From NCBI RefSeq assembly GCF_904831005.1, contig NZ_LR882982.1, positions 1,550,001-1,614,000 on the forward strand: a stretch of 64,000 nucleotides of DNA, in the 5' to 3' direction. Position 1 is the stretch's first letter; the number at the start of each line of letters is the position of its first letter. The position numbers were made by a program, and so were the translations under genes. Source of the DNA: Microbacterium hydrocarbonoxydans (lineage in GTDB: Bacteria; Actinomycetota; Actinomycetes; Actinomycetales; Microbacteriaceae). Below are positions 15,331-61,961 of this stretch, piece by piece. The notes below the pieces were generated by a model. The model saw only the letters and a list, made by a program, of their open reading frames with translations. It was not told where the DNA came from and ran no database searches.

Positions 15331-15957
15331 TTACATGTTCGGAGTGAACTCTGACACGGTGCGGGCAGCGATGACGCGCGCATCGTCGCTGCTCGGGCCC
15401 GGCTCGGCGACGAAGACCGCCTCGCGGTAGTAGCGGAGTTCGCGGATCGATTCGAGGATGTCTGCGAGCGCCCGGTGGCCACCGTCCTTGGCCGGCGCCT
15501 GGAAGAATACGCGCGGATACCAACGACGAGAGAGCTCTTTGATGCTCGAGACATCGACATTCCGGTAGTGCAGCCACTGATCGACGTCGGGCATGTACTT
15601 CGCGAGGAACATCCGGTCGGTGCCGATGGTGTTGCCGGCGAGCGGCGCCTTCCTCTCGAGCGGGACGAATCGCTTGATGTAGGCGAGAGTCTGCGCCTGT
15701 GCCTCCTGGAGAGAGACACCGTCGGGGATCTCTGTGATCAGACCGGAGCTCTCATGCATCTTCGTCACGAAATCGTTCATGTTCTCGAGGGCGGCGTCTC
15801 CCGGTCGGATCACGATCTGGAAGCCCGGATCGACGGGATGCAGCTCGAAATCGGTGATCACCACCGCGATCTCGACGAGTTCGTCCACGGAGAGATCGAG
15901 TCCCGTCATCTCGCAGTCGATCCAGACGAGGCGATCGTTCTCTGACGCAGATACCAT
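15331..15957 (-). CDS. orn: Oligoribonuclease
   Basis: The essential 3'-to-5' exoribonuclease that degrades 2- to 5-mer RNAs and linear dinucleotides such as pGpG. It has 208 residues with the DEDDh nuclease motifs: WIDCEMTGLD (Asp and Glu metal ligands) at the N-terminus, an Exo II region near FLAKYMPDVDQWLHYRNVDV, and HRALADILESIRELRYYR with the catalytic His and final Asp. It has its own promoter 6 bases upstream. The neighbourhood (tRNAs, ssb, ettA) matches that of M. tuberculosis orn. Confidence 0.96.
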   Translation of the reverse strand: MVSASENDRLVWIDCEMTGLDLSVDELVEIAVVITDFELHPVDPGFQIVIRPGDAALENMNDFVTKMHESSGLITEIPDGVSLQEAQAQTLAYIKRFVPLERKAPLAGNTIGTDRMFLAKYMPDVDQWLHYRNVDVSSIKELSRRWYPRVFFQAPAKDGGHRALADILESIRELRYYREAVFVAEPGPSSDDARVIAARTVSEFTPNM

Positions 15958-15963
15958 GCGGCC

Positions 15964-15969
15964 ATACTA
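15964..15969 (-). promoter_or_regulatory. -10 element of leaderless orn
   Basis: TAGTAT, then GGCCGC, then the ATG at 15957. TGTCGGAG occurs 7 bases upstream of it, one base short of PafBC spacing. Confidence 0.55.
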
Positions 15970-16017
15970 TCGACGGCTCCGACATCGGCCTCCGGCGCGG
16001 TACGGTAGAAGCTCCCC

Positions 16018-16090
16018 GCCTCCGTAGCTCAGGGGATAGAGCAGGAGCCTTCTAATCTCTTGGTCGCAGGTTCGAATCCTGCCGGGGGCA
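16018..16090 (+). tRNA. tRNA-Arg (TCT anticodon)
   Basis: Acceptor GCCTCCG/CGGGGGC with one G-U pair, D-arm AGCTCAGGGGATAGAGC, anticodon loop CTTCTAA (anticodon TCT, reading AGA), T-arm GCAGGTTCGAATCCTGC. No CCA is encoded. The base of the anticodon loop has a C31-T39 mismatch, and the stem closes with a G27-T43 wobble, which is unusual but compatible with function. Confidence 0.88.
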
Positions 16091-16122
16091 CCGTGGACCG
16101 GGTGGCTTCGTCGTTCCGGCGC

Positions 16123-16392
16123 TCAGCCGTTGCGCAGCGCCGCCACCGCATCGTCAGCTCGCCAGAAGTCGCCGACGAGTCGGAACGAAGCCGTCGCGAG
16201 GTGCAGACGCTCAGCACGGTACCTGATGCCGAGAGGGTCGTTCACGATGCGGAGATGGCCGAGGGTCCGGCCGGATGAATCCTGCACACGCCACAGGTGC
16301 GCGGCGGCGCGGGTCAGGTGCTCCCTCCGTGACGTGAGCGTCGGTGCGGCGTAAGGGACCTCGGGACGGGAACTGATCAAGGTGTCGGACAT
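16123..16392 (-). CDS. 89-residue protein of unknown function with a PafBC-type promoter
   Basis: I do not recognise a characterised family. The protein is basic and soluble, with no signal or membrane segment. The N-terminal 25 residues look disordered. The remainder (LWRVQDSSGRTLGHLRIV ... RYRAERLHLATASFRLVGDFW ... ADDAVAALR) looks like a small beta-sheet domain ending in a helix. The ATG has a strong GAGAGGAGAT ribosome-binding site (16397-16409). It is monocistronic and divergent from an ssb paralogue. Its promoter carries a full TGTCGGTG-N8-TATGTT motif, the arrangement of mycobacterial PafBC-activated DNA-damage genes. A role in damage response is inferred from this context only. Confidence 0.75.
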   Translation of the reverse strand: MSDTLISSRPEVPYAAPTLTSRREHLTRAAAHLWRVQDSSGRTLGHLRIVNDPLGIRYRAERLHLATASFRLVGDFWRADDAVAALRNG

Positions 16393-16413
16393 CGGTATCT
16401 CCTCTCTTCTTCG

Positions 16414-16435
16414 AACATATGGGCGACCACCGACA
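16414..16435 (-). promoter_or_regulatory. PafBC-type (RecA-NDp) promoter of the 89-residue gene
   Basis: On the minus strand TGTCGGTG (16435-16428), 8 bases, then TATGTT (16419-16414). This matches the core TGTCRGTG-N8-TANNNT fully. It leaves a leader of about 14 bases containing the ribosome-binding site. Confidence 0.65.
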
Positions 16436-16600
16436 TTCGACGCGCCGATCGTCCGAGACAGCTCGAGTCCTCGTCTGCACGGATCAGAGTGAGCGTGAAT
16501 CCATGCACAACCACCGTCTTCGCGACGGCCGGTGCGTCGCTCGCACCCGCACTCTGAGTGCACCCGGGCGTCCGGTCCGGCACACAGAGGAGAGAAGCAG

Positions 16601-17131
16601 ATGCATGACACTGTCACCATCGTCGGCAACGTCGCCACCGACCCGACACAGGGGCGCACCGCGAGCGGCATCCCCGTCACGAACTTCCGTCTGGCCAGCA
16701 CCCATCGACGATTCGACGATGCGACCCAGACCTGGGTCGACGTCATCACCAACTGGTATTCGGTCGCCGCCTTCCGGCAGCTCGCCGAGAATGCGAAAGC
16801 GTCCCTGAGATCCGGTGACAGCGTGATCGTCACAGGCAGGATGAAGATCCGATCCTGGGAGAACAACGGCAAGCAGGGAACGAGCGTGGACATCGATGCG
16901 GACGCGATCGGCCATGATCTGCGGTGGGGAATGACCGCCTACCGACGCAACCCGCGAACGGTGGCGACGGACAGAGCCCGCGACCAGGCGCCTCAGCACA
17001 CCGAGGAGCGGAATGAGGAACGGCCGACGGACGCCGACGGGGGACCGGTGATCGACACGTCGTGGGCGACGACGGACGAACGGGCTCCCGACTTCGACAC
17101 CGATTTCGCCTCGGCGACCGCGGCACTCTGA
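16601..17131 (+). CDS. ssb: Single-stranded DNA-binding protein paralogue (SsbB-like)
   Basis: 176 residues. The OB-fold covers residues 1-110 (VTIVGNVATDPTQGRTASGIPVTNFRLAS, NWYSVAAFRQLAENA, VIVTGRMKIRSWENNGKQGTSVDI). The remainder is a hydrophilic linker. The C-terminus is FDTDFASATAAL, without the acidic DDxxPF tip that canonical SSB uses to bind repair partners, so this is probably the accessory SSB rather than the replicative one. In M. tuberculosis the equivalent SSBb gene (Rv2478c) also precedes ettA. The ATG has a GAGGAG ribosome-binding site 7 bases upstream. The 16393-16600 spacer holds the divergent promoters. Confidence 0.9.
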   Translation: MHDTVTIVGNVATDPTQGRTASGIPVTNFRLASTHRRFDDATQTWVDVITNWYSVAAFRQLAENAKASLRSGDSVIVTGRMKIRSWENNGKQGTSVDIDADAIGHDLRWGMTAYRRNPRTVATDRARDQAPQHTEERNEERPTDADGGPVIDTSWATTDERAPDFDTDFASATAAL

Positions 17132-50875: not shown

Positions 50876-50898
50876 GTGTCGGTGACAGCGATTATCGT
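50876..50898 (+). promoter_or_regulatory. PafBC-type (RecA-NDp) promoter of the SF2 helicase
   Basis: TGTCGGTG at 50877-50884, 8 bases, then TATCGT at 50893-50898, then 7 bases to the ATG at 50906. This matches the core of TGTCRGTG-N8-TANNNT fully, with G instead of the usual leading T. Confidence 0.65.
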
Positions 50899-50905
50899 GG
50901 AGTCG

Positions 50906-52648
50906 ATGCTTTCTCCTTCCTTTCCTCAGCGCGCCCCGTGGGGAACCGCGAACAAGCTGCGCGCCTGGCAGCAAGAGGCTCTGGAGCAGTATTTCGAGGC
51001 CGATCAGCGGGACTTCCTCGTCGCTGCGACGCCGGGCGCGGGCAAGACGACCTTCGCGCTGACCCTCGCCGTCGAACTGATGCGCATGGGCGAGGTCAAT
51101 CGCATCATCGTGGTCGCACCGACCGAGCACCTGAAGACCCAGTGGGCCGACGCGGCGGCGCGCGTGCACATCCGCCTCGACCCGCGCTTCCGCAACAGCG
51201 ATTGGGCTCCGGCGCGGCACTATCACGGTGCCGTCGTGACGTACGCGCAGGTGGCTGCGAAGTCGTCGGTGCACCGGCATCTCACCGAAGACGCACGCAC
51301 CCTGGTCATCCTCGACGAGGTCCATCACGGTGGCGATGCGCTCAGCTGGGGCGATGCGATCCGCGACGCCTACGGGCCCGCGAAGCGGCGGCTGCTGTTG
51401 TCGGGCACGCCCTTCCGCAGCGACACCGCGCCTATCCCCTTCGTCGAATATCACCCCGACGAGTCCGGTGCACGCATCTCGAGGACCGACTACAACTACG
51501 GATACGGTCGAGCTCTCGCCGATGGCGTGGTGCGGCCGGTGCTCTTCCACATGTACGCCGGCAAGATGCGTTGGCGCACGAGCACCGGCGACGAGCTGGA
51601 GACCCACCTCGGGCAGGACAACACCAAAGACGTCACCTCGCAGGCCTGGCGCACAGCGCTCGACCCGGAGGGCGAGTGGATGCCTGCGGTGCTCTCGGCG
51701 GCCGACCGCCGCCTCAGCGAGATCCGGCACCATGTTCCCGACGCCGGCGGGCTCGTGCTCGCGACGGACCAGACGGTCGCGCGGGCATACGCGAAGATCC
51801 TGCACAGCATCACGGGTCAGCAGCCGACCATCGTGCTCTCTGACGATGCGACCGCCTCTGAGCGCATCGAGAAGTTCAGCGCCGGAGACGCCCGCTGGAT
51901 GGTGGCGGTCAGGATGGTCTCCGAGGGCGTGGACGTACCGCGGCTGGCGGTCGGCGTGTACGCGACGTCGTCGTCGACGCCGCTGTTCTTCGCGCAGGCG
52001 ATCGGACGATTCGTGCGAGCGCGTCGACGCGGAGAGGCGGCCAGTGTCTTCCTTCCGCAGGTGCCCGTGCTCATGGGGCTCGCGAACGAGATGGACAAGC
52101 AGCGCGACCACGCGCTCGATCGTCAGTCGAAAGACGACGACGGCCTCGAGGACTCCCTGCTCGAGAGCGCGAACCGCGAAGACGATGCGTCCGATGCGCT
52201 GACCCAGGAGTTCAGCTACCAGGCGCTGTCGTCCGTCGCCCACTTCGATCGGGTCGTGTTCGAGGGGCAGGAGTTCGGCCAGCTGGCTGAGCCCGGAACC
52301 CCGGAGGAGGAGGAGTTCATCGGGTTCCCCGGGCTGCTCGAGCCGGAGCACGTGCATGAGCTGCTCATGCAACGCCAGTCCAGGCAGTCCCGGCTTCGTG
52401 AAGCGCGAGAAGCCAAAGCATCTCCCACCGAGACGACGACTCTTCCCGCGCCGTTGCACCGGACGCTCAAGGAGCAGCGCCAACTGCTCAACAGCCTGGT
52501 CGGCCTGTACGCCAGGCAGAAGGGCGAACCACACGGAGCCGTGCATGCTGAGCTTCGCCGCATCTGCGGCGGGCCCGCCGTCGCACAGGCCACCGTGACG
52601 CAATTGCAGGCCCGCATCGAGGTGCTGCGCAAACGCGTGAGGTCCTGA
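50906..52648 (+). CDS. Superfamily 2 DEAD/DEAH helicase, probably DNA-damage related
   Basis: 580 residues. The N-terminal RecA lobe has ATPGAGKT (41-48), VAPTEHLKTQW, motif II DEVHH and motif III LLSGTPFRS. The second lobe contains SEGVDVPRLAVGVYAT and QAIGRFVRAR. The ~150-residue C-terminal region is acidic, then coiled and basic, with no named domain. It belongs to the ResIII-like group of orphan actinobacterial helicases with unknown substrate. The promoter matches PafBC-activated genes, supporting a repair function. It is monocistronic. Confidence 0.88.
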   Translation: MLSPSFPQRAPWGTANKLRAWQQEALEQYFEADQRDFLVAATPGAGKTTFALTLAVELMRMGEVNRIIVVAPTEHLKTQWADAAARVHIRLDPRFRNSDWAPARHYHGAVVTYAQVAAKSSVHRHLTEDARTLVILDEVHHGGDALSWGDAIRDAYGPAKRRLLLSGTPFRSDTAPIPFVEYHPDESGARISRTDYNYGYGRALADGVVRPVLFHMYAGKMRWRTSTGDELETHLGQDNTKDVTSQAWRTALDPEGEWMPAVLSAADRRLSEIRHHVPDAGGLVLATDQTVARAYAKILHSITGQQPTIVLSDDATASERIEKFSAGDARWMVAVRMVSEGVDVPRLAVGVYATSSSTPLFFAQAIGRFVRARRRGEAASVFLPQVPVLMGLANEMDKQRDHALDRQSKDDDGLEDSLLESANREDDASDALTQEFSYQALSSVAHFDRVVFEGQEFGQLAEPGTPEEEEFIGFPGLLEPEHVHELLMQRQSRQSRLREAREAKASPTETTTLPAPLHRTLKEQRQLLNSLVGLYARQKGEPHGAVHAELRRICGGPAVAQATVTQLQARIEVLRKRVRS

Positions 52649-59071: not shown

Positions 59072-59983
59072 GTGCGTAAAACGTCCGCCGTTCTGGCCAC
59101 TCTCAGCCTCGCCGCCCTCGCTCTGACAGGGTGCTCTGCCGCGCCGTCGTACGCCGGTGCGGCGTGCGATCGCACCGGCACTCCTGCGGTCGCGGACTCT
59201 GTGACGGTAGAGGGCGACCTCGGTGAGAACCCTGAGGTGACGGTGTTCACTCCCGTCAAGTCGGACGCCACCGAGTTCTCGGATGTGACGGTCGGAGACG
59301 GTGCGACACTCACGTCAGATGTGCAGCCCATGGTGCTCGACATCTCGTTCTACGGCGGCGACAGCGGCGAGAAGCTCTTCGAGTCGGAGTACAACGGTGA
59401 TCTGAGTCGTGTGCACAACATCGCCTACTGGGCGCAGCGTTCGCCGGGACTCGAGTCGGTGCTCGAGTGCGCGACCGGCGGTACGAGGACGGTCGCGGTG
59501 CTCACGCCTGAGGACTTCGGCGAGAGCAACGTGCAGGCTTTCGGACTCGAGGACGGCGAGAACATCGTCGCGGTCGTCGACGTCCTCGAGGTGCACCTGG
59601 CGAAGGCGGAAGGCGCGTCGCAGTTCAACGACGCGCGCGGCCTGCCCACCGTGGTGCGTGCACCCGACGGCACTCCGGGAATCATCATCCCCGACAGCCC
59701 TGCTCCCGAAGACACCGTGGCGCAGACTCTCATCAAGGGTGACGGCGAGAAGGTCGAGAAGGACTCGGTCGTGGTCACGAACATCATGGCCGTCGGCTGG
59801 GACGACAGGACCGTCGCGACGAGCACGTGGGGCGCCGAGCCGAACATCGGACTGGCCGCCGAAGAGCTGGTCGGTGCAACGGTCGGCTCGCAGCTGCTCG
59901 TCGTCGCACCCGGGGCAGAGGGCGCATCCGCGACTGCGATCGTCGTCGACATCCTGGGGATCGTTCCCGTTCCGGAGCAGTGA
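59072..59983 (+). CDS. FKBP-like lipoprotein with two degenerate modules
   Basis: 303 residues. Type II signal peptide with lipobox LTGC and Cys21. The mature part shows two similar segments (about 45-170 and 205-300). Each contains the TLTSDVQPMVLDISF / VEKDSVVVTNIMAVGW start and the SPGLESVL / GAEPNIGLAAEELVGATVGSQLLVV pattern seen in FKBP peptidyl-prolyl isomerases. Several active-site aromatics are missing, so catalysis is doubtful, especially in module 1. It is located on the outer face of the membrane. It directly precedes pafB, with TGATG overlap. Confidence 0.82.
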   Translation: MRKTSAVLATLSLAALALTGCSAAPSYAGAACDRTGTPAVADSVTVEGDLGENPEVTVFTPVKSDATEFSDVTVGDGATLTSDVQPMVLDISFYGGDSGEKLFESEYNGDLSRVHNIAYWAQRSPGLESVLECATGGTRTVAVLTPEDFGESNVQAFGLEDGENIVAVVDVLEVHLAKAEGASQFNDARGLPTVVRAPDGTPGIIIPDSPAPEDTVAQTLIKGDGEKVEKDSVVVTNIMAVGWDDRTVATSTWGAEPNIGLAAEELVGATVGSQLLVVAPGAEGASATAIVVDILGIVPVPEQ

Positions 59984-60975
59984 TGGCCGCCCGTATTCCC
60001 GCGGAGGAGCGCCTGACGAATCTCGTCGTGGCGCTGATGGCCACGGAGATCGGGTTGACCAAGCAGCAGATCCTCGACAACGTCTCGGGGTACCGCCAGC
60101 GCGCGGACGCCGGAGCGCGGTCGGATGCTCTCGAGAAGATGTTCGAGCGCGACAAGGACGAGCTCCGCACACTCGGGGTGCCGGTTGAGACGATCGGGGA
60201 TCCCGCAGACCCGAACGACCTCCGAGAAGCGAGATATCGCATTCCCCAGGCGGAATACGATCTTCCCGGCGATATCGAGTTCACCGCTGCCGAGCTTGCG
60301 GTCCTGCAGCTGGCCGGCAGTGTGTGGAGCACGGAATCGGCATCGGTCGATGCGAAGGCGGGGGTTCGCAAGATCCGCGCACTCGGGATCGACGGCGATG
60401 AACCCATCATCGGATTCGCGCCGCGGATCACCGCACGCGATGCCGCCTTCCCGCCTCTCCAGGACGCGATCGAGAAGTGCCGGGTGGTCTCTTTCGACTA
60501 CCTGAAGCCGGGCGAGGAGTCGCCGCGTCGGCGCACCATCCGGCCGCTGGCGCTCGTGGACTACGAGGCCCGCTGGCATGTCTACGGTATAGACGTCGAC
60601 ATCGAGGCCGACAGGATGTTCCTGCTCAGCCGCATCGTCGGCGATGTGCGCATCACCTCGACCGCATTCGAGCCGCATCTCCGCGACGGAGCGGGGGAGC
60701 GGGCACTGTCCGGGCTCGAGCGCGTGGCGGCCCAGAATGCGGCGCTGCTGGAGGTCACTCCCGGCACCGAGGCCGCGCTGAGGCTCGGACGACGAGCCAC
60801 GCCCGCCGCACAGGGAATCCATGTGCCGTTCGTGGATCTGCACATCCTCGCCGACGAGCTGGCGTCATACGGTCCCGAGGTGCGCGTCGTCGAGCCCGCC
60901 GCCCTGCGCGATGCCGTGATCGCTCGCCTCACTGCCGTGGTCGCGGCCAATTCCGATCAGGAGGGCGTCCGATGA
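59983..60975 (+). CDS. pafB: PafB, WYL-domain DNA-damage regulator subunit
   Basis: 330 residues. N-terminal winged HTH (LVVALMATEIGLTKQQILDNVSGY) and a WYL domain (RTIRPLALVDYEARWHVYGIDVD). In mycobacteria PafB and PafC form a heterodimer that activates the LexA-independent damage response at TGTCRGTG-N8-TANNNT promoters. The ATG overlaps the lipoprotein TGA (TGATG); pafC follows in an ATGA overlap. The gene does not sit behind pafA, as it does in mycobacteria. Four candidate target promoters are in this window. Confidence 0.93.
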   Translation: MAARIPAEERLTNLVVALMATEIGLTKQQILDNVSGYRQRADAGARSDALEKMFERDKDELRTLGVPVETIGDPADPNDLREARYRIPQAEYDLPGDIEFTAAELAVLQLAGSVWSTESASVDAKAGVRKIRALGIDGDEPIIGFAPRITARDAAFPPLQDAIEKCRVVSFDYLKPGEESPRRRTIRPLALVDYEARWHVYGIDVDIEADRMFLLSRIVGDVRITSTAFEPHLRDGAGERALSGLERVAAQNAALLEVTPGTEAALRLGRRATPAAQGIHVPFVDLHILADELASYGPEVRVVEPAALRDAVIARLTAVVAANSDQEGVR

Positions 60976-61961
60976 GCGCCAAGTCGAAGCCGCTCCTGGC
61001 GTCGGATCGTGTGCGGGTGTACCTGACACTCGTGCCGTACCTCCTGGAGCTCGGGCAGGTGTCACTCGCCGAGGCCGCCGAGGAATTCGGGGTGACGCCG
61101 AACGAGATGCGTCAGATGGTCGAGAAGCTCACCGTCATCGGCCTTCCCGGCGACGCCGGTTTCTGGCAGCAGCCGCAGGAGCTGTTCGACATCAACTGGG
61201 ACCTTCTCGACCAGCAGGACATCATCGAGATCACGAACGATGTCGCTCTGCGCCGGGTCCCGCGCTTCACAGCTCGCGAGGCGGCCGCTCTTCTCGCAGG
61301 GCTCCAGATGGTCGCGGCGGTTCCCGCCGTGTCGGACTCGGGGCTCGTGAGCGGCCTCATCTCCAAGCTCTCCCGCGGTGCGGCGGATGCCCCCGCAGAA
61401 GTCGTGGTGGCACCGAGTGCCGTCGACGAGGTCAGACAGGTCGTCTCGCGCGCCGTGCAGCAGGGCGTCGCGGTCTCGTTCACGTATCAGGCACCGGATG
61501 CCAAGCCGATGACACGCACGGTCGATCCGGTGCAGATCCTCATCACGAATGCGCAGTGGTATCTGCAGGGCTGGTGTCATATGCGCGAGGCGATGCGCAC
61601 CTTCCACCTCGACCGTGTGAGCGATGCGCGACTCACCGAGATCCCGATCACTCACGCAGGAGATCAGGTGCCCGAGGCCTTCTCGTCCGTCGACGATGAG
61701 GGTGAGGTGCGCGTCCGCCTTCCGGAAAGGGTCGCACCGCTTCTGGGCGATTTTCTCACGGCAGACAATGTCGATGTCGAGAACGGCGTCGTGACGGCCC
61801 GACTGAGGCTCGCGGACCCACGAGGCATCAAGCGCTTCGCGGGACGCTTCGGCTGCGCCCTCGAAGTCATCGAACCCGCAGTCGCCCGCACCGCGGCACG
61901 CGAGTGGGCGGCCGCAGGACTCGCCCTCTATCGTGACCCGGACCAGGGCGACGCCGGTTAG
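60972..61961 (+). CDS. pafC: PafC, WYL-domain DNA-damage regulator subunit
   Basis: 329 residues. HTH segment YLLELGQVSLAEAAEEFGVTPNEMRQMVEKL, then a WYL domain with the variant QILITNAQWYLQGWCHMREAMRTFHLDRV, and a C-terminal WCX extension. It is the PafB partner. Its TAG stop forms the first bases of the tatA -10. PafBC was originally linked to the proteasome only by gene neighbourhood; here that neighbourhood is absent. Confidence 0.93.
   Translation: MSAKSKPLLASDRVRVYLTLVPYLLELGQVSLAEAAEEFGVTPNEMRQMVEKLTVIGLPGDAGFWQQPQELFDINWDLLDQQDIIEITNDVALRRVPRFTAREAAALLAGLQMVAAVPAVSDSGLVSGLISKLSRGAADAPAEVVVAPSAVDEVRQVVSRAVQQGVAVSFTYQAPDAKPMTRTVDPVQILITNAQWYLQGWCHMREAMRTFHLDRVSDARLTEIPITHAGDQVPEAFSSVDDEGEVRVRLPERVAPLLGDFLTADNVDVENGVVTARLRLADPRGIKRFAGRFGCALEVIEPAVARTAAREWAAAGLALYRDPDQGDAG

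Follow-up and report, generated by a model that had tools for sequence, protein, structure and literature searches.

A small gene of unclassified family behind a conserved PafBC-type promoter in Microbacterium hydrocarbonoxydans and other Microbacteriaceae

The DNA analysed here (the window) is a stretch of 64,000 nucleotides from Microbacterium hydrocarbonoxydans. It belongs to a 3.72-Mb single-contig chromosome whose closest named relatives are Microbacterium. In this study, we focused on a small orphan gene of 89 codons, which runs on the minus strand from an ATG at 16390-16392 to a TGA at 16123-16125, and on the promoter box that precedes it. The locus contains the following features.

15331..15957, minus strand: orn (oligoribonuclease) homologue, the next same-strand gene downstream, from its ORF and synteny; named by sequence recognition, without a family scan
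16018..16092, plus strand: tRNA-Arg (tct), convergent, between the orphan gene and orn
16123..16392, minus strand: orphan gene, stop codon included, from its ORF, homologues, dN/dS and AlphaFold models
16397..16406, minus strand: ribosome-binding site GAGAGGAGAT, from the sequence, between the box and the ATG
16414..16435, minus strand: PafBC-type promoter TGTCGGTG-N8-TATGTT, the whole box, an exact match conserved in orthologues
16414..16419, minus strand: -10 hexamer TATGTT, from the sequence
16428..16435, minus strand: -26 element TGTCGGTG, a sequence match
16601..17131, plus strand: ssb paralogue, divergent, PF00436 E 1e-24

The orphan ORF is practically certain to be a real gene. Homologues were present in 341 of 366 genomes of the same genus. 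In a family-wide sample of 398 genomes from 85 genera, 194 genomes and 49 genera had the gene. A sample of the order yielded 31 carriers among 396 genomes; 30 belong to the same family, and the one outside it was a weak match (E 2e-4). A profile search of a large protein set returned 1311 homologous proteins, and the named entries among the 120 listed were all hypothetical or uncharacterised. Source labels from outside the family among the homologues listed, for example Streptomyces sp. AC495_CC817 (84% identity to the window protein) and Zhihengliuella sp. ISTPL4 (74%), are taken for putative mislabelled records. The distribution of homologues suggests that the protein is restricted almost wholly to Microbacteriaceae. 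The median dN/dS of 0.155 (range 0.093-0.265; 32 of 33 orthologue pairs, one excluded by preset limits) indicates that the gene is under purifying selection. Two to three matches per genome were seen in G440, G502, G553, G700 and G725 (g76), G414 and G483 (g50), G557 (g80) and G022 (g1). One in-frame stop occurs in some matches (G198, G062, G063, G316; G367, G602, G557, G750 and others). Many such matches probably extend beyond the gene start, and the stop in G198 lies inside a full-length match.

The initial annotation of this stretch had described a perfect PafBC motif ahead of the start codon and a leader that holds a ribosome-binding site. Both descriptions hold. The full box reads TGTCGGTG-GTCGCCCA-TATGTT, exact over its whole length and 21 nt from the ATG, and the ribosome-binding site lies between the two. 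The published PafBC promoter consensus, which the box matches, is tTGTCRgtg-8nt-TannnT (PMC5656591). In a scan of the window, the box at the orphan gene was the sole one with zero mismatches, and 4 matches were found at up to 3 mismatches, against a chance level of 1.53 such matches on average, with 4 shuffles reaching 4. A promoter scan of 15900-16700 detected no sigma-70-type -35/-10 pair. The SOS box has the pattern TCGAAC-N4-GTTCGA. At up to one mismatch this pattern occurs at 47 places in the genome, compared with 8 for the control, and none is listed between 1550745 and 1630647 (the orphan gene lies at 1566123-1566392 in these coordinates). LexA control of the orphan gene was rejected because no box lies nearby.

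Conservation of the box with the gene is more than chance would give. For the pooled test, removal of 30 duplicates, 5 loci of ambiguous orientation and 2 with N runs left 127 distinct homologues out of 164 loci, and mismatches to TGTCGGTGG-N7-TANNNT were counted in fixed positions. A match with at most 2 mismatches was found in 124 of the 127, compared with 10 of 2028 length-matched control stretches from the same loci, a figure that measures conservation and not 127 independent trials since the homologues share descent. The best match had 0 mismatches in 76 homologues, 1 in 40, 2 in 8 and 3 in 3; the corresponding numbers in the control stretches were 0, 1, 9 and 106. A first pass over the named loci (74 of 75, L086 being dropped for incomplete sequence) gave the strict motif in 48 of 74 and a looser motif in 70 of 74. 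The family search added 30 loci, 23 of them from other genera. All 29 that were parsed had the box under the loose pattern, and the unparsed one (L129) has it with 1 mismatch. Of 11 loci without the strict box that were read by eye, seven had a best match with 1 mismatch, two had one with 2 and two had one with 3. In 836 kb of flanking DNA from 71 loci, both strands counted, the strict motif occurred 0 times and the loose motif 5 times. At 70 named-locus sites the spacer is near G-Y-C-G-N-Y-C-N, and CGAA follows the -10 hexamer, so that the hexamer plus the next bases end TTCGAA. The spacer and discriminator are more uniform at the orphan gene than across ten sites of its own genome (its own and those of nine repair genes).

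The surroundings of the gene are less constant than its box. The divergent ssb paralogue noted in the initial annotation is confirmed by its family match, and ssb lies alongside the orphan gene in 67 of 75 named loci, orn in 74 of 75. In other genera, ssb was matched within about 1.5 kb in 1 of 23 loci (a partial match) and orn in 1 of 23. The adjacency of ssb is therefore probably incidental. The ssb paralogue ends DFASATAAL, without the acidic -DIPF-type tail that is usual in SSB; a divergent relative at L121 ends DVPF. In ten other-genus loci that were read, the flank on one side is mostly an aldo/keto-reductase-, transporter- or msrA-like gene, these names being given by sequence recognition. 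A membrane protein starting MQWWN or similar is encoded next on the same strand in 9 of the 10 (L124, L125, L126, L130, L131, L133, L134, L136 and L138). Two of these proteins were scanned and had no Pfam match, and the first 220 residues of the one from L124 had no match in the present genome, a single query that shows little alone. Read by eye, the MQWWN-type gene has an apparent leaderless promoter of its own, so the orphan gene looks monocistronic in other genera too. The membrane protein was rejected as an operon partner since it seems to be independently transcribed from this promoter. At the window locus the gene also looks monocistronic, as had been proposed, with the opposite-strand tRNA-Arg and then orn downstream. 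A terminator after the gene was looked for and rejected: folding of the 38 nt at the gene end was no stronger than that of shuffled sequences (z 0.05), and no terminator-like site was found on the minus strand in a scan of 15900-16700.

The window also contains the regulator genes and a second box.

50877..50898, plus strand: another exact PafBC box, directly ahead of a large helicase-like ORF (50906-52648)
59983..60975, plus strand: pafB, from its WYL and WCX domains and its place before pafC
60972..61961, plus strand: pafC, from its HTH_PafC, WYL and WCX domains

The pattern TGTCRGTG-N8-TANNNT has 8 exact matches in the genome, compared with 1 for the reversed control pattern, and the relaxed TGTCNGWGG-N7-TANNNT has 15, compared with 1. 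Together they give 20 distinct sites. Besides the orphan gene's own, 10 of these head repair or helicase genes, namely recA, uvrA, uvrB, mfd, recF, sbcD, pcrA, rarA, a TM0106-type RecB-like nuclease and the helicase-like ORF. ORFs were read at all sites and ten were family-scanned: sbcD, uvrB, the TM0106-type nuclease, recA and recF score above the curated cut-off, pcrA, mfd and uvrA, each truncated where its locus stops, fall under it, as do rarA and the helicase-like ORF. The name rarA comes from AAA-ATPase rows and from a RarA row that scores 188.7 bits against a cut-off of 570. For the helicase-like ORF, the sole NCBIfam row at E 1e-10 belongs to a model of a Dnd-type restriction enzyme and lies far under the cut-off. 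The other 9 of the 20 predicted sites (L006, L008, L178, L179, L181, L183, L185, L186 and L188) precede ORFs without an evident repair link, which are secreted-protein-, glyoxalase-, oxidoreductase-, hydrolase-, acetyltransferase- and MFS-like or unknown, as named by recognition. The recA box has a one-mismatch LexA-like dyad ahead of it, starting 88 bp upstream. The dyad fits dual control of recA and is weak alone, given that the genome has 47 places of this kind, compared with 8 for the control pattern.

An HTH_PafC match was found in 192 of the 194 family genomes that carry the orphan gene. Co-occurrence of the gene with PafC was set aside as uninformative because the match is almost everywhere (390 of 398 family genomes). 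Among the 8 negative genomes, G638 and G659 carry the orphan gene and are 89% and 63% complete. In streamlined family genomes of 1.4-1.5 Mb (G375, G378 and G392), the HTH_PafC match is weaker than most and there is no orphan-gene match. The initial annotation had put the gene forward as the best candidate in this stretch for a new part of the LexA-independent damage response. This proposal is supported, as far as membership of the regulon goes, by the box kept in nearly all of the relatives examined, by the box at repair genes, by PafB and PafC in the window and by the lack of a LexA box. Judged from these sequence features, the orphan gene is very probably under PafBC control, which would make it a new member of the regulon.

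The orphan protein is soluble and usually basic, and the pI exceeds 9 in 51 of 78 family members. Its conserved core consists of LWRV, G-H/Y, G-x-R-Y/F-x-A-K/E-R and GxFW-x3-DA. AlphaFold predicts a beta sheet of five strands followed by one C-terminal helix (pLDDT 87.0; 82.8 for a further model), and R57, R59 and K/R/E61 alternate along one predicted strand. The claim that the protein has no recognised family was borne out when the proposed HMM search was carried out. Pfam gave no match in 28 members. NCBIfam, PHROGs and PADLOC gave no convincing match (best E 0.036 in one member, 0.07 in one and 0.0073 in two), and the names disagree. A PDB sequence search returned one row only, 2oku, with an unconvincing E of 0.025. 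The SSB/OB-fold family PF00436 matches the neighbouring ssb and not the orphan protein, and tblastn with the window protein alone as query found no match in phage and plasmid records. The protein thus stands outside all of the libraries searched (Pfam, NCBIfam, PHROGs, PADLOC and, as far as convincing matches go, the PDB).

The predicted structure was also compared with known folds. The sheet and helix model has a weak resemblance to DNA-binding domains of the AP2/ERF and arm-type integrase kinds (structural rows 7et4, 7wq5, 1gcc and 3ju0). The likeness, a tentative one, consists of a beta-beta-beta-alpha arrangement over residues ~43-89; the orphan protein differs from these domains in having two extra N-terminal strands and no second domain. 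Alignment by hhalign with 13 arm-domain stretches (13 of 14 matched stretches, one from a short locus being dropped) gave a probability of 7.4 over 21 columns and a score of 18.2, compared with 9.3 for the reversed profile and 15.3 for the best of 60 column shuffles. This profile similarity is not significant, and kinship with arm-type integrases was set aside. Small uncharacterised phage proteins such as A0A6J7WI40 have a similar predicted fold (for that entry, Foldseek probability 1.00 and TM 0.78 by target length), with none reaching E 0.001 and no tblastn match in the phage records. The Foldseek searches of PDB and viral structures used the first model only, and the comparison extends to the folds listed.

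In mycobacteria, PafBC is bound by single-stranded DNA at its WYL domains, the helix-turn-helix domain of PafB engages the -26 motif and PafC is in contact with sigma domain 4 (PMC11804915). By the mechanism known from mycobacteria, single-stranded DNA made by damage would bind the WYL domains of PafBC in M. hydrocarbonoxydans, and PafBC would bridge the housekeeping sigma factor to the -26 element TGTCGGTG and the -10 hexamer TATGTT. The transcript would start a few bases past the -10 hexamer and would carry a short leader, a strong ribosome-binding site and the code for one small protein. Computation supports the gene, the box and its conservation, the regulon context and the fold model. Because the PafBC parts are present here as they are in mycobacteria, we infer that transcription of the orphan gene is induced by damage; the exposed sheet face of the protein, its binding partner and its effect are likewise inferred. 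A role of some kind in the damage response is likely. In repair, the protein may act in stoichiometric amounts, its target being nucleic acid or a nucleoprotein complex, and an accessory factor that binds nucleic acid through the basic face of its modelled sheet is our preferred, if tentative, guess. The whole reading, a damage-inducible PafBC effector found almost only in Microbacteriaceae and acting on nucleic acid or nucleoprotein, has a probability of about 0.5. A bolder version is rather doubtful, in which the family as a whole would possess a dedicated single-domain nucleic-acid-binding mini-protein that is permanently tied to PafBC, joins the repair machinery, is without a counterpart in the libraries searched and has a fold common to small uncharacterised phage proteins.

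The same regulation would also suit a protein that modulates a repair or cell-cycle protein, such as RecA, SSB, a nuclease or a division protein, instead of acting on DNA. Small damage-induced modulators exist elsewhere, and this possibility, itself a tentative one, is nearly as likely as nucleic-acid binding. It is improbable that the gene responds to PafBC and acts outside repair, in redox or general stress. Oxidative-stress genes are reported in the mycobacterial PafBC regulon (PMC8223512), and nearly half of the box sites in the present genome (9 of 20) head ORFs without an evident repair link; however, no invariant cysteine or metal-binding pattern was seen in the alignments, which speaks against this reading. 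The ORFs without an evident repair link could also be taken to mean that the box matches by chance or works only as a constitutive promoter, the orphan ORF being unrelated to damage. This is very improbable, since the box accompanies the gene in different genera and in varying genomic contexts, and the strict motif is absent from the flanks. Conservation of the box as code for a peptide (ATG TCG GTG GTN, giving M-S-V-V-x-H-M-F-E) is hardly credible and was rejected: three database entries translate the box in frame with the protein (P0106 starting at its ATG, P0107 and P0117 further upstream), but these starts are probably misannotated, the frame of the box ATG differs from that of the gene in the window, and the variable positions in 70 orthologous sites include second codon positions of the box frame (6, 9, 12, 15 and 18), unlike coding sequence.

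A PafBC-controlled effector acting on nucleic acid remains the reading that we prefer. PafBC is best studied in mycobacteria. Its promoter motif is already known beyond them, in other Actinobacteria (PMC8223512). The motif has now been followed into Microbacteriaceae, where it heads the expected repair genes, and one orphan gene keeps the box across nearly all of the relatives examined, in differing neighbourhoods. Literature searches with limited journal coverage found, among the papers listed, none on the orphan family or on PafBC in Microbacterium. We regard the pathway and the promoter type as known and an unclassified protein as a member of the PafBC regulon as new. The promoter of the orphan gene could be used as a reporter of PafBC activity outside mycobacteria.

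Compared with the mycobacterial system, the orphan protein is without a counterpart outside its family in the order sample, bar the one weak match. The promoter shares with those of the mycobacterial PafBC regulon (RecA-NDp promoters) the same -26 element, the 8-nt spacer and a TANNNT -10 hexamer, with no sigma-70-type pair found here. It differs from the mycobacterial promoters in that the Microbacteriaceae box also occurs as TGTC[GC]G[TA]GG.
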